From: Lumbricus rubellus
Lineage: Eukaryota > Annelida > Clitellata > Crassiclitellata > Lumbricidae
Direction of reading: 5' to 3'
Length of the DNA: 64,000 bases
Assembly (NCBI GenBank): GCA_945859605.1
Contig: OX243814.1
Span: 43,492,005-43,556,004, forward strand
The notes beneath the pieces are model-generated. The model did no database searches and was not told the origin of the DNA. It saw only the letters and a list, made by a program, of their open reading frames with translations. The translations under genes were made by a program, and so were the position numbers. Positions 3,031-18,052 of this stretch are shown here, piece by piece; position 1 is the first letter of the stretch, and each line of letters starts with the position of its first letter.

Positions 3031-3140
3031 AGTAGATGTAATATTTGCCCTCTGGATGTCTTTTATTATTTCCTGAGGGGGGTGCTCGGTAGTACAGTGG
3101 TTAGCGCGCTGGACTGTCAACCAAGAGGTCTTTTATTATT
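3031..3140 (+). repeat. Polinton left terminal inverted repeat
   Basis: 110 bases identical to the reverse complement of 17943-18052, starting AGTAGATGTAATATTTGCCC. Beyond base 3140 the two ends diverge but keep short shared blocks (TTTTATTATTTNCTGATTCCTC) that repeat about every 40 bp to base 3235. It contains a tRNA-like half at 3081-3130. Confidence 0.95.
3081..3130 (+). other. tRNA-Asp-like 5' half inside the TIR
   Basis: GGTAGTACAGTGGTTAGCGC resembles the D-arm/A-box of a tRNA (compare the GTTAGTATAGTGGT type in animal tRNA-Asp). It is followed by an anticodon-loop-like CTGTCAA with GTC and a short TGG/CCA stem. No T-arm or B-box follows, so this is at most a half. The mirror copy is at 17953-18002. 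A Pol III role is inference only. Confidence 0.45.
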
Positions 3141-3242
3141 TTCCTGATTCCTCCTCTTCTCATCTAGCGCCTTTTATTTTTTTACTGATTCCTCCTCACA
3201 TCTCTCATCCATCTCCTTTTATTATTTCGATCAGCAAGGAAA

Positions 3243-4316
3243 TTAAGGTCGTAAGAATACTGCCGAAAAGTCTCTAGCTAATATATTTAGTGCGATGTGC
3301 GAATAAGCGAATATCTCGAGAAAATCGGTATTGGTTACGAAAATTATGCAACTACCGGTTGAATTGTTAAACGCAGCTCCCGTTCCCCCTCCGCCCGCAA
3401 TTTGCATGTAATTCGCCCCATTTCTATACAGGTAGACGTTACCAGGAGCGGTACTACTGTTACCAAATTCTATGTACGTCGAAACGAAATAGTATCCGGC
3501 TTTACCGGGAGTGAAACGGGTCATTCCCGCACTTATAACACCATCGGTTTTGAATCTTACACTATCGAAAGTAACTCTTGTGTGAGTTTTAGCGATTAAG
3601 AATTGCCAAGTTAAAGAATGAATGCTAAGCGCGGGACCGATTGAGATAGAATCTACATACTGCTTCGTAGCTGCATCGCTGGCGTTGTTGGGTTCGTGTA
3701 GTCCTGTAATGTAAGCATCATGCATAAAGATGGACTTATACACATTTATTTTAGACGGAGGAGTGCCATCGAGTGACTTAACCATCTCTAACATGATTTC
3801 ATTGTTTATTCTAAAACGAAATCCATCCATCGATTGTAATGTAATAGGATTGTTTAACGAACATTGTAGTTTATTTCGTATACTACCTAAGAAAATAGTG
3901 AATTCTTTATTTTCTCCTCTCAAGTCCTTACAACCCATTGAACGCAGACGATCGGAGCCAACGTTTAAGATTAGATCACCAGTCATGGTGTCACCAGTTT
4001 TAGACACCTTCAATGTAACTTGTTCATCAACGTATTTCTTATTCGTCAAATGATTATCGTTGGACGGAGAATCGTCGTGATTCGTTATCAAATCAATGGC
4101 TTGACCCCAACTTAAGGCCTCATCCATTCCTGCTGTCAAAGGCTTCGTTGTGGGCAGTCCTTTAATTTTGTGACCACCCATTTTTAGATTTCCAGTCGCC
4201 GGATTTACCCCATCCAATCGGAGGAAACTGGCATTTATTTGACTAAGAGTAACACCTCCAGCGATTACTCTTTGTGATGAACCAACATCGGTGTGGCCGA
4301 ATTTATCGACGGGCAT
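3243..4316 (-). CDS. Fibre-like protein 1 with C1q-like head
   Basis: A 357-residue protein, starting at the ATG at 4316. It has an N-terminal MPVDKFGHT segment, then a phage-tail-fibre-like shaft with two copies of a T-K-x-Y-V-D motif (LTNKKYVDEQ near residue 90 and DAATKQYVDS near 215) and KVSKTGDTMTGDL. The last ~130 residues look like a C1q/TNF-type jelly roll (VTFDSVRF, FTPGKAGYYF, VYLYRNG, DFSAVFL). By analogy with adenovirus fibres this would be a trimeric capsid spike with a receptor-binding knob; that role is inferred. It sits at the left end of the element, 31 bp from the stop of fibre 2. Residues ~85-165 are almost identical to fibre 2, also at DNA level. Confidence 0.75.
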   Translation of the reverse strand: MPVDKFGHTDVGSSQRVIAGGVTLSQINASFLRLDGVNPATGNLKMGGHKIKGLPTTKPLTAGMDEALSWGQAIDLITNHDDSPSNDNHLTNKKYVDEQVTLKVSKTGDTMTGDLILNVGSDRLRSMGCKDLRGENKEFTIFLGSIRNKLQCSLNNPITLQSMDGFRFRINNEIMLEMVKSLDGTPPSKINVYKSIFMHDAYITGLHEPNNASDAATKQYVDSISIGPALSIHSLTWQFLIAKTHTRVTFDSVRFKTDGVISAGMTRFTPGKAGYYFVSTYIEFGNSSTAPGNVYLYRNGANYMQIAGGGGTGAAFNNSTGSCIIFVTNTDFLEIFAYSHIALNILARDFSAVFLRP

Positions 4317-4347: not shown

Positions 4348-5457
4348 TTAGTCATCGTATACATATAATTGCATAACCTGAATCCCTCGTAGAGGATGAT
4401 CATCATACTTTGTCACTACTGTAACTCTATAATATTGATACGCATCCATAGGCATAATAATATCATAAAATGTCGGAACAGCCTCTGAAGTAGTTGAAGA
4501 AAGACGTGATGATATGGGTACAAACATTGCTCCATCATTGCTAGCGGTTAAAATTAAATCACCTATATATTCGCTTTTAAACGCAATTCTCCAAATTTTA
4601 ACTGGCTCAGGACATTTAATTTGTAACCAAGTAAACATACCTTTACCTGGAATCCAAGCTGCGTTCACATCATCGGTGAGATTAGTGAAAGCATGGTAGG
4701 CTTTGCTTCCGGAAGAACAAGAACCAGCGCTAGCAACGAATCATGTTACACTTACATCATCTTCCAAGGGAGGAATATACCCAACACGACACTTTTTCAG
4801 AGATTTATCGACGTAATTCTTTGTAGCAGCATCTTGAGCTGAAAGAGGATCGCTTAAATCGTTGATATTATTACTATTCATTAGGATATTTTGATAAACG
4901 TCGATTTTACGATCGTTAGACGCTCTACCGATTCTCATTATATTTTCTACACCTATTTTGCATAGAAATCCATCCGTCGATTGTAATGTAATAGGATTGT
5001 TTAACGAACATTGTAGTTTATTTCGTATACTACCTAAGAAAATAGTGAATTCTTTATTTTCTCCTCTCAAGTCCTTACAACCCATTGAACGCAGACGATC
5101 GGAGCCAACGTTTAAGAACAAGTCGCCAGCCATTGTATCACCAGTCTTAGACACCTTCGATGCATCAACGTATTTCTTATTCGTCAAATGATTATCGTTG
5201 GATGGAGAGTCATCGTGATTCGTTATCAAATCAATAGCTTGTCCCCTACTTAAAGCTTCATCCATTCCTGCTGTCGAAGTATTCGTTACTGGGAGACCTT
5301 TTATCACATGTCCATTCATTTTTAAATTTCCAGTCGGCAGATTTGCTCCATCACATCGAAGAAAATTAGCATTTATTTGAGTAAGAGTTACACCTCCAGC
5401 GATTACTCTTCGTGATGTTCCTCCAGCAGCGGTGTGACCGAATTTATCGACAGGCAT
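4348..5457 (-). pseudogene. Fibre-like protein 2, in-frame TGA before its discoidin-like head
   Basis: ATG at 5457 opens a 238-residue frame with the same N-terminus and shaft as fibre 1 (MPVDKFGHT, LTNKKYVD, DAATKNYVD), ending at a TGA at 4741-4743. The same frame continues without another stop to 4348. The downstream part holds an F5/8-type-C (discoidin)-like fold: AWIPGKGMFTWLQI, SNDGAMF, YQYYRVTVV and a final QLYVY. So one stop separates shaft and head. A nonsense mutation is the simplest reading; read-through giving headed and headless fibres is possible. The head differs entirely from the C1q-like head of fibre 1. Confidence 0.7.
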
Positions 5458-5934: not shown

Positions 5935-8604
5935 TTAATTAAAAATTTTCAACGAGTAGTGACCATATGCCAAAGTATGAATTCCATCCTCCATTATTAC
6001 CCGTTTATCGTCATCTGCAGATAATGCAACTTTATTAATTTCTTCTGTATAAATATCGTGATGATAAGATCTAATAACATTCATCGTTCGTTGTTGTTCT
6101 TTTTTAGTAAATAAACAGTCTTTATAATCTTCGTGAGTAATAGTTTTCTGGACAACATTCTTCTTAATACCTTTACATTTCTTGTGCTCATCTCCAGCAG
6201 CCATCTTATAAGAATACAACTTTGCTCTGAGTCCAATAAATTCTTTTATCTGTTTCCCACTAGCTTCATCCTTGAACATTCCAATAACTTTTTTATTTAC
6301 TCCAACCTCAATACCAGATGGATGATCTCTCGGGTATTCACTCGTGTCGAATCGAGTCTTAATATCGCCTGCGATATCTGAGTAAAAGTCTTCAGTTTTA
6401 ATTTCGTATGTCAAAGAATCTGTATCGGTAAATAATAATTTAGCTCTATTTCCGTATTTATCCTTGATGTAATTGTAATGAAATTCATACATCAACGTTT
6501 TGCTCAAGTCTAATATACACATGCCAAGATATATAGGTTTATTATAGTACAATTTAGTTTTTTTCATGTGAACGGCTATTAGATTTTCATCGAAAATAGT
6601 ACATCTCTCGTAATTAGGTTTAGCGGCTAGTTCAATAGCCCTCTCCTCTTGACACACTAACTCTACATCAACACGATTTTCAATGTTCTCACAAGTTTTT
6701 CCAAAGACACTGTTATTCATTAACTTGAAAAAGTCTTTCTCAAAGTCATTAGTAGCTTTCGTTCTAAGAGCTGTATTTAAATCGATATACTTTTTCAACC
6801 AATCACTTTCTTCGAATAGTACACCTCTATGCACTTTTGTTATTTTCAAACCCAAGCTCTCATACAGCTTCAGATTATCGTAATGCAGCACATACTTCTT
6901 TTTATGGTTTAAGTTTGGAATTAACTTTTTGACTTTGTTAATCTCAATGCTTTCGGGGGCTAACGGAAAATCGTTATGCAGGTCGTGTAACTCTTTAGGA
7001 TATTCCAAATCAACTTCCAATATGCATGGAATACTTCTCCAATTATTTAATTCATCTTCGTTCATCCATTTGAACCCGTGAGTAGGTAAATTTTTGATCA
7101 TAGCCCATCCATATAGATTATTCGCATCCAGGTAAGTAATAAATGTAGAATTTTCGTTACTATTGAAATCGCTCATATATTTATTATTCGCTTTCCCGTA
7201 ACGATTTGATATTGTGCTCACTCCTCCTCTCATCCCTTGCCTAAGCATCAGAATCATATCATAATCATTCAATAACTCCAATTTCACGCCTGTCAATTTT
7301 AAAGCGGCATCCCAGGCTAAACCAGGAGATGTAAAATACCATGCAGGGTCAAGCGTATAGTTCTTCATACACACATCTCTAAAGTTTTCGAAAACATCGG
7401 CAAGTAACAGAACATCCGAAACGTTGTATAAATCGTGATATTCTCTGAATGTTTTGCATCCAAATTCCTTCCATACCGTTTTTGCATGCTCGTAGTCTTC
7501 ATCGCTAATATTCGATTCATTTAGCTTAGAATAGAATGCGGATTTTGGTGGTAGTTCGGTTTCATTAAAGGTAGTAAATGAATCGACGTAGTCATAAGGA
7601 TATATGCCTTTTCTCAGCAAAAGATCGAGCTTCTTTCCAGTATATCGTTTCCCAATGTTTTTACACTGGTCTTTGCTTAGGTTCCTCGATAAAGCATCAA
7701 GACTAGAAGCCATAAATTTAAAACTGTCGATAAAGCGCAATTCGCGCTTGACGGTAATCTCTTTTCCCTCTTTATTTACAAACTTATCAACAACGACCTC
7801 CCTGCTAAAAGATATATACTTTTCCTCGTTATTAGGTATGCAATTAATTTTCTCTCCATTATTACCTCTCAGTTTCTTAATGAACAGATGACAATCGTAC
7901 CCGGAAAGATTATGAAACACTACAGGGAAAAACTTGGGGACTTTATAGTTTACATTACAAATGTTATGAGCAGCCCCTCTAAATTTACCGCTAAGATGAC
8001 AGTGATCTCTCACTCGGTCTTCGCCCAACGGTTTTTCACAGATATGGCATATAGTAGCTCCATCAAAACACTTCTTGTCCTCTTCTGTAAATATCATCTT
8101 CTTAGGGAATTTAAATTGATTATATATTTGTTTTATATTCTCTTCTAGTTTATCTACAAATATTTGACCAACATCATCATCTTCGCTTTCAGCCGTAAAC
8201 GTCACAGGATCTTGAGAATATACACTATCGTCGAAACATTTTATGTGGTAACAAAAGGAGCTAGGAATATGCTTTTGATATTTATTAGTGTACGACAACT
8301 CTGGATTTGGTTGGCATGTATCGATCGGTTTTACAAAAGACTCAAAATCTGCGTAGACTATAAACGGAACCCTCATAGAATTGTTATAATTTTTAAAACT
8401 TAACATAGTTCCTGGTTCTGGCATTTCTATTTTTTGTGCGTTATGGTGTTTGCAGTACTCATCATGGTTGTTAAGCGCTTCTGTCGTTGTGAAACCATTC
8501 ATACACCTTTTACAATAGTGCGCTGAATAATGCGAATTTGCTGTTCGGAACGTCATCAATCGGTTAAAATTCTTTATCCAGCAATAATGTTTTTTTTTCT
8601 CCAT
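5935..8604 (-). pseudogene. Protein-primed DNA polymerase B, C-terminal 889-residue frame
   Basis: Family B polymerase of the protein-primed type used by Polintons and adenoviruses. It carries exonuclease motifs VYADFESF (ExoI), HNLSGYDCH (ExoII) and DVLLLADVF (ExoIII), and polymerase motifs TYLDANNLYGWA (A), NNSVFGKTCEN (B) and FTDTDSLTYE (C). A zinc-finger-like CxxC...HxxxxC segment lies near residues 31-51. All catalytic acids that I can see are intact. The N-terminal third of the polymerase lies in a different frame (8564-9604). The break maps to a run of nine A on the coding strand (8590-8598), so the ATG at 8604 is probably not a natural start. Confidence 0.9.
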
Positions 8605-9604
8605 CAGATATAAGCAAAAGATCTACACAAATATCGCTTTCACAGTTAGACAGATAAAGCGGATAGACATGTTTTTCGTAACCAAATATATTAACACTAA
8701 TATTATTATTTCTCTCAAATTTACCTATCACATTAGCATGAGTCGCTACCGGAAACTCAATACCACTCCAATTAAGTTTTTTCGATTGTTCTTTCAAAGC
8801 TTTCGTTATTTTTTCCGGATTTTTTACAACCGGATTCAAAGCTCTAGTGATACACCATTTGAAACATTCTTCGTCGTCGTTTTTCATATTTATAATAGCC
8901 TTTTTATTAGCTAAGAAGCTGGGAAGTGGAATGTAAGAACTACCTCTTAAGGGGGTATATTTTACCGTATTTATATCTAATTTTACAACAGCTTTAAATC
9001 TCCAATTACTTCCTTGCATCTGAAAACTAGCAATAGACTCCATGATTTTATCCTTCTTTCTGCTGTATATTTCATTCAAGTCGGTTGCTTCTAAAATAAC
9101 TTCTGCCCTGGAAACGAATGGTATATCCTCAGAATTAACTATTCCCGATTTCATATCTACTCGTTCCATATTACAAGTAAGAACTAAATTAGTCTTTGTC
9201 TGGCGATTACTCGACAACAGATTAACTACCTGCGGTCTGACGAAATCAAGAAACGACGAGGCGTCCATTCCATTAGTTCCATCTATTCTATATTGCTTGG
9301 TGAATCCTTTAATAGCCGACGCCGTTTCTCTAATTTTAATTTTATCAAATATCCTAGAAACAGTTGACTTCAATGATTCTAGTTTTTCATTAACCTCTGC
9401 TTGTTCGGGCACATAACTAAGTAGCCAATCCGCAAAATCATTTATTTTAGCTCTAACCCTATTTTTGTATTTTCTCTTAGGCGCTACTGGTTTGTATTTA
9501 CCAGGTGTGGGTGTAAGCGTAGGAATCTTAATGTCAGGAACCGGCGAGTCGAGCAAGTGTTCAACATGGTTCATGTTTCTTAAACTACTTTTCTTTAAAT
9601 CCAT
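8564..9604 (-). pseudogene. Protein-primed DNA polymerase B, N-terminal 346-residue frame
   Basis: ATG at 9604. The protein has a basic, proline-rich start and then the Polinton polymerase N-terminal region (SSYIPLPSFLANKKAIINMK, CFKWCITRALNP, VNIFGYEKHVYPL, LLLISDGEKK). Directly after that last motif it enters an A9 run, falls out of frame and ends at 8564, overlapping the next frame by 41 bp. One surplus base in the A-run accounts for the break. Total polymerase length across both frames is about 1,220 residues, normal for the family. Confidence 0.85.
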
Positions 9605-10063: not shown

Positions 10064-10498
10064 TTAAATCAATTTTCCATACACTACACTCATTTTCTGC
10101 CCATCCGATTGGAACTGCAGCAACCTATCTGAAATTACGACTGCATACGCTTCTGTGTCGGCTGGCACTGCTGCATTGAAAAGAGCCTTAATTTGTATAT
10201 CAACGACTGACGATTTCAAACGCTCGGATTGTTTGCTTACATCGAACACGAACAACGGATATAATTCTTTATAATCTACAGGTGTTATATTGCTTTGGGT
10301 AATCAACTTATCCATACCATAGAATTTTTGACTAAAGGAGGACGCGTCTCTGTACGCTCTGGAGAATTGTTGATTAGGAAACGACAGGTTATGATCGACA
10401 GCTGGATATCTTTCTTGATTCATCATCACATAAATGTTCTTGAGATCGCAGTGATTAAATAGCGACGGATTACTTTCCTGATTACCGCTAAAATCCAA
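10064..10498 (-). pseudogene. Major capsid protein, C-terminal frame
   Basis: 144 residues of a Polinton double-jelly-roll capsid protein: NPSLFNHCDLKNIYVMMNQ, YPLFVFDVSKQSERLK, and AYAVVISDRLLQFQSDGQ at the end. The first residues continue the N-terminal capsid frame (10488-11363) after a frame change near 10490. No ATG start is present: the first codon of the open frame is TTG. Both halves together have about 430 residues, the usual length. Confidence 0.85.
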
Positions 10499-14671: not shown

Positions 14672-15448
14672 TTATTTAATGTAAAATGTATCTAATCCAG
14701 ATCTGTACCTGCCCTTATTTGTTTTGCTAGTCAAGTCAATAACCACAAAACCATGCGTTTCATCCCACGCAGTTTTGCATAGTTTTCGAAATTCTTCTAT
14801 AGTCATATCATCTACACCTATATGATCGCTGTATATGTGGTTAATATTTTTAAGGTCTTGAGGGAACAAACATATAAAGTTGGCATTCTCTCTTATAGTT
14901 TGTCTAGGTAGCTTGAAATAATTTTGTGCTAGGTAAAAGCAGTCTACATTACTATGCCTACCTCTTATATAATAGGATTCGCATTTATTTTGTCGCTCTA
15001 ACTGTAAATCATCAAAAATCATGAGATTCTTCTTATCTCGACTTAAGTCTCGTGGATCTGGAACATCTTCAGAGGTTTCAAAGAACTTGCAGTCTATATC
15101 CGATGTTTCCCCCATGTTTTTAGACATCTCCTCGACTACGGCGGTCGGTGATACATTTAATTTCATTATCTCATCTCTATTATCGAAAAGTCTTATAATT
15201 GCTTCCTTTGGTAATTTCTCTTCGAATGCTTTCTTTAGTATCTTGTATTCTGATTGAAAAAGACTTTTTCCAAAGATCTGCAGGTTATCGTAGTCTAACC
15301 AACCAGGTCTCAGTAATAAATTAAGTAGTAAAATCGTTTTACCACATTGAGACTTACCTACGATCAAACCTCTGATGCTTCTTGGTAGGAGAGGACTGTT
15401 AAAGCGTTTAGATGTATCTTCATTCCATGACAGGTCTTGGACTTCCAT
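14672..15448 (-). CDS. FtsK/HerA-type DNA-packaging ATPase
   Basis: 258 residues, ATG 15448. The Walker A motif GLIVGKSQCGKT lies at residues ~27-38, Walker B NLMIFDD at ~141-147, and a sensor-like YLAQNYFKLP follows. It belongs to the A32-like packaging ATPases of Polintons, adenovirus IVa2-like analogues and large DNA viruses, and would pump the genome into the capsid. The frame is intact. Its start codon is only 20 bp from the divergent start of the zinc-ribbon/PLA2 gene. Confidence 0.9.
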   Translation of the reverse strand: MEVQDLSWNEDTSKRFNSPLLPRSIRGLIVGKSQCGKTILLLNLLLRPGWLDYDNLQIFGKSLFQSEYKILKKAFEEKLPKEAIIRLFDNRDEIMKLNVSPTAVVEEMSKNMGETSDIDCKFFETSEDVPDPRDLSRDKKNLMIFDDLQLERQNKCESYYIRGRHSNVDCFYLAQNYFKLPRQTIRENANFICLFPQDLKNINHIYSDHIGVDDMTIEEFRKLCKTAWDETHGFVVIDLTSKTNKGRYRSGLDTFYIK

Positions 15449-15472
15449 TTTAATTATATTATATTAAAATGG
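15445..15472. promoter_or_regulatory. 20-bp divergent promoter with mirrored start codons
   Basis: The ATPase start (15448, minus) and PLA2 start (15469, plus) face away from each other across a 20-bp AT-only spacer. CCATTTTAAT on one side mirrors ATTAAAATGG on the other, so both ATGs sit in the same TTAAAATGG context. Any core promoter must lie in this spacer or in coding sequence. Confidence 0.6.
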
Positions 15473-16005
15473 AGCACAACTCGTATTGTGTAAAATGTAA
15501 GCGACAAACTGAGTGTAGAGATATTCAACGAGTTGTCAGTAAGAATGGCAGACCTATGCTTAGATGTGTATGTGTTGAGTGTGGCGCTAGAAAAACTCAG
15601 TTTACTAAAATGTCCACTGCTACAGGTGGTGATTTGGTATCAGCTCTCAATTCTGCTACTTCTAATATTAAACTTCCATGGGCAAAGTACCCGGGTGAAA
15701 TGCATCTTCCAGGACATTCTTTCACGGGTCCAGGTACTCGATTGGATTTGAGATTGAATCCTGATGGAACACCAAAAGATTGGAGTAAACCAGTAGATAG
15801 GGTTGATGCAGCAGCCTATCGTCATGACCTGGCTTATGCTAAACATACTGATACAGCAGGGAGAAACGTCGCTGACAGAGCTATGATAGATGAATTAAAT
15901 AATATACCTAATCCTTCTTTCCGCGAACGAGTTGAAAGATCTATAGTTAAACCAATTTTATCAACGAAAACCCATTTTGGAATGGGGTTGAAAAAAAACC
16001 TCTGA
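15469..16005 (+). CDS. Zinc-ribbon plus phospholipase A2 virion-like protein
   Basis: 178 residues, ATG 15469. Residues 8-45 form a DUF5679-like zinc ribbon (CVKCKR, KNGRPMLRCVCVECG). Residues ~80-150 carry a parvovirus-VP1-like secreted-type PLA2 core: FTGPGTRLDLRL supplies the calcium loop, and DAAAYRHDLAYAKHTD the H-D active-site helix. In parvoviruses this enzyme breaches endosomal membranes; the same role here is inferred. The frame ends at TGA 16003-16005, just 3 bases after a phased A AAA AAC heptamer (15993-15999) that would lead into the integrase frame. The final residues, KTHFGMGLKKN, are basic. Confidence 0.85.
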   Translation: MEHNSYCVKCKRQTECRDIQRVVSKNGRPMLRCVCVECGARKTQFTKMSTATGGDLVSALNSATSNIKLPWAKYPGEMHLPGHSFTGPGTRLDLRLNPDGTPKDWSKPVDRVDAAAYRHDLAYAKHTDTAGRNVADRAMIDELNNIPNPSFRERVERSIVKPILSTKTHFGMGLKKNL

Positions 16006-16057
16006 GATGGACAGACCAACTTGCTGACGAATTACATAAACCTATAGTCAGGAAGTT
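15993..16057 (+). promoter_or_regulatory. Candidate -1 ribosomal frameshift signal
   Basis: The PLA2 frame reads AAA AAA AAC CTC TGA, placing the classic slippery heptamer A AAA AAC at 15993-15999. A -1 slip enters the integrase frame directly. Downstream, AACTTGCTGAC (16018-16028) pairs with GTCAGGAAGTT (16047-16057), giving 10 of 11 pairs with an 18-base loop. The 18-base spacer is longer than the usual 5-9. Confidence 0.6.
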
Positions 16058-16922
16058 TAGGAAGCGAGTTGTTTATGTTCAGGGAGTGGACAAAGTTTGG
16101 GCGGCTGACTTGATTGACATGCAGGCTTATGCTAAATTTAATTCTGGTGTGAAATATTTGTTAAGCGTCATTGATATATTCTCCAAGTATGCATTTATTC
16201 AGCCGTTAAAAGATAAGCGCGGAGAATCTGTGGCAGATGCTTTCGTTAAAATATTTAATACGAGCAAAAGAAGGGGTGAAAAACTTTGGGTCGATAAGGG
16301 AACAGAATTCTATAATAAACAGGTAAAATCATTAGGTATGCAGTTGTACTCAACTGAGAATGAAGAGAAATCTTGTATCGTAGAAAGATTTAATAGAACA
16401 GTGAAAGAGAAAATGTTCAAATATTTTACAGCAAATTCAACTCAGAGATATATCGATGTTTTAGATAATATGGTTAATTTATACAACAACACAAGACATT
16501 CTTCCATTAAAATGACTCCTGTTAAAGCGAGTATCAAAGCAAACGAATGGGTTGTGTGGATGAATTTATACGGCGATGCTGTACCTGAAACTGGTAAACC
16601 TAAATTTTCAGTCGGAGATAGAGTAAGAATTTCTAAGAAGAAAAAGACATTCGAGAAAGGTTTTACTCAAAGGTGGACACAGGAGGTTTTTACAATAACA
16701 CAAATCCAATACACAGACCCAATAACGTATAAAATATCTGATTATAATGGAGAACAAATACAAGGGACATTTTATGAGCCTGAGCTGCAATCGACGACGC
16801 AAGATACATTTAAAATAGAAAAGATTATAAGGAAAAGAGGAAATCGGTCTTTGGTGAAATGGTTAGGCTATGATGATTCATTCAATTCATGGATTGATAA
16901 TAAAGACTTGATATCATTGTGA
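15999..16922 (+). CDS. Chromodomain integrase, probably made by -1 frameshift
   Basis: Retrovirus-type DDE integrase of Polintons. Core acids are the D in WAADLIDM, the D in WVDKGTEFYN and the E in IVERFNRT. A C-terminal chromodomain follows (IEKIIRKR, LVKWLGYDDSFNSWI). The family-conserved segment before the core (WTDQLADELHKP, from 16008) is in frame but has no ATG; the first ATG lies inside the catalytic core, and GTG 16086 is the only other candidate. The frame is closed upstream by a TAA near 15949. Translation as a PLA2-integrase fusion is therefore the best reading. It would cut and join element ends, and the chromodomain may target modified histone tails. The frame is intact to the stop at 16920. 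Confidence 0.88.
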   Translation, partial: PLRWTDQLADELHKPIVRKFRKRVVYVQGVDKVWAADLIDMQAYAKFNSGVKYLLSVIDIFSKYAFIQPLKDKRGESVADAFVKIFNTSKRRGEKLWVDKGTEFYNKQVKSLGMQLYSTENEEKSCIVERFNRTVKEKMFKYFTANSTQRYIDVLDNMVNLYNNTRHSSIKMTPVKASIKANEWVVWMNLYGDAVPETGKPKFSVGDRVRISKKKKTFEKGFTQRWTQEVFTITQIQYTDPITYKISDYNGEQIQGTFYEPELQSTTQDTFKIEKIIRKRGNRSLVKWLGYDDSFNSWIDNKDLISL

Positions 16923-17092: not shown

Positions 17093-17125
17093 TGACTAAA
17101 AAAAAAATTTAAAAAAAAGACCTAG

Positions 17126-17156
<31 letters not shown>

Positions 17157-17445
17157 AGAAAAAAAAAACCTAGGGAAAAAAAACCTAGAAAAAAAAACCT
17201 AGAAAAAAAGTTAGAAAAAAAAACCTAGGAAAAAAAACTTAGAAAAAAAAACCTAGAAAAAAAGTTAGAAAAAAAGTTAGAAAAAAAAACCTAGGAAAAA
17301 AACTTAGAAAAAAAACCTAGGAAAAAAAGTTAGAAAAAAAGTTAGAAAAAAAGTTAGAAAAAAAGTTAGAAAAAAGTTAGAAAAAAAGTTAGAAAAAAAA
17401 CTTAGAAAAAAGTTAGAAAAAAAGTTAGAAAAAAAACTTAGAAAA
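17093..17445. repeat. A-rich minisatellite near the Polinton right end
   Basis: Tandem units of about 11-13 bases alternating between CCTAGAAAAAAA and GTTAGAAAAAAA types, including an A-run of about 25 near 17127-17152. It lies inside the element, between the integrase and the right TIR. Confidence 0.9.
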
Positions 17446-17481: not shown

Positions 17482-17942
17482 CATAAGTCTTGTAAACAGC
17501 GATTTTCATTTCGCGTCTTCATAATAATGACCGTGACCTATAAACTTGTCTTCATCATACAGCAGCGACAAGAATTTATCTTGACGACAGAACCGGAAGT
17601 AGAACGACAAGATTTTTGGCCAAGGTCGATTTTTCCACAAATTGCACCGCGTACGATAAGATTTAATCGCATTGTACCACGTGCGAAGTGTCAACGATGT
17701 TATGGATCGGTTGCAACGATAAGGCCTTCTTGCATACAATAGCTTATACAAAAGACTAAGACTTTTAACTGGTTTATTAGCTGATTGTTTCTTCAATGGA
17801 AAACACCCCCAGATTATCCTTTAGCACCATTTAAACTTAATTTATCTTCAATATCAGATTTCTTAAAAGGTAGCTAAGTAATTAATTATGCATCAGGAAA
17901 ATAATAAAATACCCTAAAGAAGAAGAGGAGGAATCAGAGGGG
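17479..17942. other. Subterminal noncoding Polinton DNA
   Basis: Between the microsatellite and the right TIR. I see no convincing gene; short frames here lack recognisable motifs. Its last ~60 bases retain TIR-like blocks (AGGAAAATAATAAAAT, GAGGAGGAATCAG). Confidence 0.6.
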
Positions 17943-18052
17943 AATAATAAAAGACCTCTTGGTTGACAGTCCAGCGCGCTAACCACTGTACTACCGAGCA
18001 CCCCCCTCAGGAAATAATAAAAGACATCCAGAGGGCAAATATTACATCTACT
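17943..18052 (-). repeat. Polinton right terminal inverted repeat
   Basis: Perfect inverted copy of 3031-3140, ending in CT on the plus strand. The tRNA-like half is at 17953-18002. Confidence 0.95.

Follow-up and report, generated by a model that had tools for sequence, protein, structure and literature searches.

A probable -1 ribosomal frameshift joining a phospholipase A2-like protein to the integrase of a Polinton in Lumbricus rubellus

How is an integrase made when its gene has no start codon and is offset by one letter from the frame of the gene upstream? The question is raised by a Polinton of about 15 kb with terminal inverted repeats, contained in a stretch of 64,000 nucleotides of the Lumbricus rubellus genome (assembly GCA_945859605.1, contig OX243814.1, positions 43,492,005 to 43,556,004, forward strand; hereafter the window, with position 1 as its first letter). 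In this element a phospholipase A2-like (PLA2) gene is followed on the same strand by a retroviral-type integrase. The missing start and the frame offset together mean that the integrase is probably made only through a slip on a run of A residues at the end of the PLA2 gene. Judged from sequence, ribosomes probably undergo programmed -1 frameshifting on a heptamer of the form A AAA AAN, which would produce a PLA2–integrase fusion protein. The features of the junction are as follows.

15469..16005, plus strand: PLA2 open reading frame (ORF), zero frame, 178 amino acids, comprising a DUF5679 part and a phospholipase A2-like domain (Pfam and translation)
15993..15999, plus strand: slippery heptamer A AAA AAC, in phase (sequence and translation)
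16003..16005, plus strand: TGA that closes the PLA2 ORF one codon past the heptamer (sequence and translation)
15951..16922 (open, approximate), plus strand: integrase frame, -1 relative to PLA2, with an rve-like core and a chromo-like C-terminus
16107..16121, plus strand: presumed first catalytic Asp (16107-16109) and, behind it, the first in-frame ATG of the integrase (16119-16121) (translation)

A preliminary description of this DNA, made from its letters, had proposed such a frameshift on the strength of a heptamer in slippery phase near the PLA2 stop, an integrase in the -1 frame and the lack of an integrase ATG until inside the catalytic core. All three observations hold. A run of eight A residues occupies 15991-15998, and A AAA AAC sits within it in the X XXY YYZ phase of the PLA2 frame. 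The conserved N-terminus of the integrase begins at 16002, with the sequence LRWTDQLADELHKP. In Pfam searches the DUF5679 and Phospholip_A2_4 matches of the PLA2 ORF both exceed their cut-offs, whilst those of the integrase piece both fall below theirs (rve, 28.4 bits against 32.6; chromo, 20.4 against 25.1). An alignment of 31 integrase relatives matches the integrases of prototype foamy virus and other retroelements in the PDB, and also heterochromatin protein 1. The Asp at 16107-16109 is invariant in this alignment, and its catalytic role is presumed by analogy with the family.

Over the 4174 ORF codons of the element, AAAAAAN occurs in phase at five sites, equivalent to a chance of about 0.5% per four-codon stretch before frame is allowed for. 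This figure alone is unconvincing, since two of the five sites fall at a break in a DNA polymerase B-like (PolB-like) gene which is private to the window copy. What convinces is conservation over the copies of the element in the same genome. The assembly comprises 368 contigs and 787 Mb. When it was searched with the integrase, 3458 candidates emerged; the 129 that scored best were retained, and the junction was read in all of them. A subset of 90 copies with longer flanks was used for closer reading, and 89 of these, with the chimeric copy L047 left out, for alignment and tree. The integrase lies in the -1 frame relative to PLA2 in 118 of the 129 copies, in the +1 frame in ten and in frame in one. 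An in-phase A AAA AAN is present in 116 of the 118 -1 copies, as A AAA AAA in 57, A AAA AAG in 47 and A AAA AAC in 12, and is missing from two. The last base of the heptamer varies across the -1 copies whilst the -1 geometry is kept.

Within the 90-copy subset, 86 copies have a match from the first base, and in all 86 the PLA2 frame is open up to the junction. Of the 83 -1 copies in the subset, 82 agree in the length of the PLA2 tail beyond the heptamer. The integrase carries an early stop in one copy of the 90. Its first in-frame Met stands at the same position in 90/90. The preliminary description had named a separate integrase ATG in relatives as a sign of an indel or an intron instead; 89 of the 90 copies are free of any in-frame ATG ahead of this Met. 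With heptamer, phase and missing ATG all kept among the copies of this genome, the alignment check which that description had proposed comes out in favour of a frameshift. One copy, L006 (G000:C4:43558420-43559337), is found on the contig of the window some 50 kb further downstream, and its integrase is 99.9% identical to that of the window over 921 nucleotides.

Both frames are under purifying selection. The ratio of non-synonymous to synonymous differences per site (pN/pS) is 0.12 for PLA2 in 33 copies of equal length (mean pS 0.13) and 0.107 for the integrase in 76 copies (mean pS 0.17), the latter biased downwards by the choice of copies on integrase score, a choice to which PLA2 was not directly subject. 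In the 89-copy alignment the PLA2 part differs in length only by multiples of three and has no frame-changing indel; a one-base difference at the extreme end of the integrase is common to six of the 89 copies. On the tree, all seven states other than -1 are single tips. Terminal branches sum to 1.53 and internal branches to 0.85, so that about 3.9 internal events would be expected at the terminal rate, and the probability of finding none is about 0.02. The last base of the heptamer follows the tree weakly (30 parsimony changes with the exceptions as a class of their own, against a mean of 39 in shuffles), and recombination may contribute to this.

The preliminary description had cautioned that other genes of this copy carry frame breaks. 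It is true that the window copy is also broken in the capsid protein gene (10488-10498) and in the PolB-like gene (8564-8604). These two breaks, however, are private to the window copy, the halves of each gene sharing one frame in 10/10 other copies as judged by tblastn frame only, while the PLA2/integrase break is shared: the ten control copies are all -1 at that junction. An indel or assembly error at the junction was accordingly rejected, on the 129 copies together with the capsid and PolB-like control, and the -1 state, being common to copies of the same genome, is not a private indel.

Relatives elsewhere were sought with three protein queries, with 120 matches listed for each. The integrase query matched 7522 proteins; eight of the 120 listed are in-frame PLA2 fusions by motif, P0046 is a partial fusion by eye, and many others start at or near the PLA2/integrase junction. 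That list includes 31 JGI-sourced integrase-only ORFs; Val or Leu is the first residue, taken literally, of 30 of them, while the remaining one starts at a Met within the core. An ATG of its own for the integrase was rejected for these 30 ORFs and, on the reading given above, for the 90 copies. The PLA2 query matched 390 proteins under a length limit which hides fused ones. By eye, most of those listed end at the same junction, soon after a common Gly-X-Gly motif, and a slip-capable Lys-Lys or Lys-Asn lies within the last 16 residues of 92 out of 119, compared with 472 of 3804 control windows (P0178, a fused fragment, being treated as unfused in this count). Five PLA2 relatives, P0221, P0223, P0225, P0234 and P0236, have a different junction, stopping right after a Phe-Gly-Val-like motif with no Lys-Lys.

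The third query, a fused protein, matched 3544 proteins and by its nature favours fused matches. Many of those listed are in-frame fusions, many on large contigs, and they include proteins from Hydra (gene models) and Nymphon. A motif search identified 93 of the collected proteins as in-frame PLA2–integrase fusions, mostly in other lineages. These retain the entire stretch between PLA2 and integrase, with the integrase N-terminus inside one chain. Many of the fused lineages have Lys-Lys-Lys between the two domains; if this is coded by AAA, a slip there could yield free PLA2. One further ORF, P0073, joins DUF5679 to an integrase with no phospholipase domain listed. In a tree of 218 integrases the fused and separate states are intermixed, although the labels are rough and some proteins with a Pfam PLA2 match are labelled separate. 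DNA of the relatives was sought as well: none was confirmed in scans of viral contigs, searches of phage and plasmid proteins gave no match, and scans of genome contigs gave just one bacterial locus, with 29 residues matched.

The case for a programmed frameshift rests on a -1 geometry that is conserved, a heptamer that lies in phase, the absence of an integrase start codon, selection on both frames and the natural fusions elsewhere. An in-phase X XXY YYZ at an overlap of two ORFs and a downstream ORF which is startless and under selection are among the features by which -1 frameshifting is recognized. A majority of ribosomes would end PLA2 at the TGA one codon beyond the heptamer, while a minority would back up one base on the A run and continue into the integrase frame; that the slip takes place on the ribosome, its efficiency, and PLA2 alone as the major product are what we infer. 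A_AAA_AAC is named among the shiftiest heptamers for mammalian ribosomes in the available text of PMC5009743.

Several observations weigh against this mechanism or against its uniformity. Heptamers ending in G are weak in animals, and 47 of the 118 -1 copies have one. An in-phase A AAA AAC is found also in five of the ten +1 copies, and A AAA AAA in the in-frame copy; the heptamer therefore follows from the A run and is by itself no proof of mechanism. The best 129 of 3458 candidates were ranked by integrase score, which favours intact integrases. In-frame fused relatives, which the preliminary description had taken as pointing to an indel or an intron, do exist; they belong mostly to other lineages, but one of them, P0087, is placed beside the window in a group with two further proteins (support 0.65). 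The direction of the shift in other species was read from protein tails. A script flagged 16 of 120 tails as -1 and ten as +1, and only flagged tails whose fit includes the Trp motif were kept. Tails reading into the integrase comprise six -1, six +1, one tied (P0227) and one +1 by eye (P0208); the score of P0202, a +1 tail, is below the highest null value. Two -1 relatives, P0132 and P0232, lack a canonical heptamer. Visible tails overcount the +1 state, since in the Lumbricus rubellus copies the tail passes Trp in 6/6 of the +1 copies and in only 1/83 of the -1 copies. Even so, the +1 relatives and the two -1 relatives without a canonical heptamer tell against a single mechanism throughout.

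The preliminary description had also proposed a stem downstream of the heptamer.

16018..16057, plus strand: proposed stem (arms 16018-16028 and 16047-16057), 10/11 pairs, not supported as a conserved stimulator

The stem is indeed present in the window, but its role as a conserved stimulator did not stand: 78 of the 90 copies keep 10/11 pairs, 12 have fewer, and there is no compensatory change. Nor is synonymous diversity lowered over the initial 25 codons of the integrase, as measured in 88 copies (P 0.32). Folding of the downstream region gave z-scores of -0.75 to -1.35, indicating a weak fold. At a spacing of 7-12, folds of 50 nucleotides are in the lowest 5% of positions, and those of 70 nucleotides only in the lowest 9-21%. 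A simple search for H-type pseudoknots found none, shuffles averaging a score of 15. A downstream stimulator may nevertheless exist.

The main rival to ribosomal frameshifting is transcriptional slippage, whereby RNA polymerase would add or drop A residues in the run, so that some of the mRNAs encode the fusion in one frame. Runs of at least eight A are found in 86 of the 90 copies, and such slippage, being indifferent to phase and direction, would also suit the +1 relatives; it is said, in the available part of PMC1088944, to serve bacterial insertion sequence (IS) elements. The in-phase heptamer does not separate the two mechanisms, because any run whose first A opens a codon has that phase. 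On the other hand, 92 database PLA2 clusters carry the motif, and for 35 of them the peptide allows a run of seven A at most, albeit with -1 status established for few of these. We regard transcriptional slippage as unlikely, though the most serious of the alternatives. The predicted product is the same fusion protein in either case, which other lineages, to judge from their ORFs, make from one open frame. A start of the integrase by itself, through a non-AUG codon or reinitiation past the PLA2 stop, appears distinctly less probable. The PLA2 stop does overlap the integrase N-terminus, and a CTG precedes Arg-Trp in the window as GTG or TTG precedes Lys-Trp in several relatives. Yet no near-cognate codon is conserved, the first usable start lies further in for many integrase-only ORFs, the first ATG is behind the presumed catalytic Asp, and the in-frame fusions hold the same N-terminus within one chain.

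A junction thrown out of frame by decay, or rare in-frame copies supplying integrase in trans, would be in keeping with a run prone to indels, as the single in-frame and ten +1 copies among the 129 show it to be, with the two private breaks elsewhere in the window copy and with the selection of all 129 copies by integrase score. It is hard to reconcile with a -1 state common to 118 copies and purifying selection on both frames, and the exceptions are tips while the capsid and PolB-like breaks are not shared; we consider it very improbable. Least credible of all, indeed close to negligible, is a spliced intron uniting the two frames, a possibility which the preliminary description had also named. 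In its favour, the donor-like AAG GTA AGA could encode part of the Lys-Lys-Val-Arg with which some relatives terminate. Just 17 bases, however, separate the Leu codon before the A run from the Trp codon of the integrase, the whole stretch is retained in the in-frame fusions, and intact vertebrate Mavericks are reported, in the accessible text of PMC8097293, to be intronless.

The remainder of the element is that of a Polinton/Maverick, with terminal inverted repeats, a retroviral-type integrase, a packaging ATPase and a double-jelly-roll capsid protein.

3031..3189, no strand: left terminal inverted repeat, pairing with 17892-18052 (115 nucleotides at 98% and 46 nucleotides at 83% complementarity)
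17892..18052, no strand: right terminal inverted repeat, partner of 3031-3189
14672..15448, minus strand: packaging-type ATPase, divergent neighbour of PLA2 (Pox_A32, poxvirus A32-type, E 5.3e-7)

The minus strand also codes for the double-jelly-roll capsid protein (MCP), and the plus strand for PLA2 and then the integrase. The ORFs 5935-8604 and 8564-9604 are PolB-like by eye, with no PolB match in Pfam at E 0.01. No reverse transcriptase was noticed in the element. Two adjoining related ORFs, 3243-4316 and 4741-5457, both begin with MPVDKFGHT and are possibly duplicated fibre-like genes; the former has no Pfam match at E 0.01. A long A-rich array of short repeats lies at 17100-17400, in the stretch that separates the integrase from the right inverted repeat.

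Should the frameshift be real, slippage and not a promoter would determine the dose of integrase, annotation of this clade from ORFs would miss the true integrase N-terminus, and the fusion would be a concrete candidate for carrying integrase in the Polinton particle. A eukaryotic DNA element would then be using the kind of frameshift known from retroviruses and IS elements. A bolder proposal, which we put forward tentatively and hold to be rather doubtful, is that throughout a clade of animal Polintons the integrase is never made except as an extension, by frameshifting, of a capsid-associated phospholipase; it would then ride with PLA2 into the virion and arrive with the incoming genome. The in-frame fused lineages, many of which have retained a lysine run there, would slip the other way to give free PLA2.

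To our knowledge, Polinton integrases are treated as separate genes. A PLA2–integrase frameshift in Polintons was not found in the literature searched, which comprised titles and abstract openings and left most subscription journals outside its coverage. Within the same virus group there is a 2024 preprint (PMC11071296) in which a prediction program places slippery sites in the Penton and Hexon-Adenain genes of adintoviruses; these are likewise predicted -1 frameshifts, but in other genes, and no PLA2–integrase case is described in the available text. In mechanism the nearest parallels are the retroviral gag-pol frameshift and bacterial elements of the IS1 and IS3 families. In the latter a shift of frame, often -1, joins the product of an upstream ORF to the catalytic domain that an overlapping ORF encodes (PMC5009743, as far as its available text goes). 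The likeness to the OrfA–OrfB transposase lies in this fusion of an upstream ORF to a catalytic domain. Here, by contrast, the element is eukaryotic, is about 15 kb long and has capsid genes, and its upstream protein is phospholipase-like rather than a DNA-binding OrfA; with a PLA2-like upstream ORF and a genome of 787 Mb, it is not an IS3-type element.

In retroviruses the gag-pro/pol -1 frameshift of mouse mammary tumour virus uses A AAA AAC. The junction described here has the same type of heptamer and would likewise tie the integrase to an upstream protein which is possibly a virion component, albeit in a Polinton with no noticed reverse transcriptase and no pseudoknot found. Finally, the in-frame fusions of other Polintons likewise have PLA2 ahead of the integrase, and in many of them the linker is rich in lysine, but theirs is one open frame of which the fusion would be the direct product. 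The frameshift proposed for Lumbricus rubellus would be of the retroviral and bacterial IS type and, as far as found, new for Polintons.
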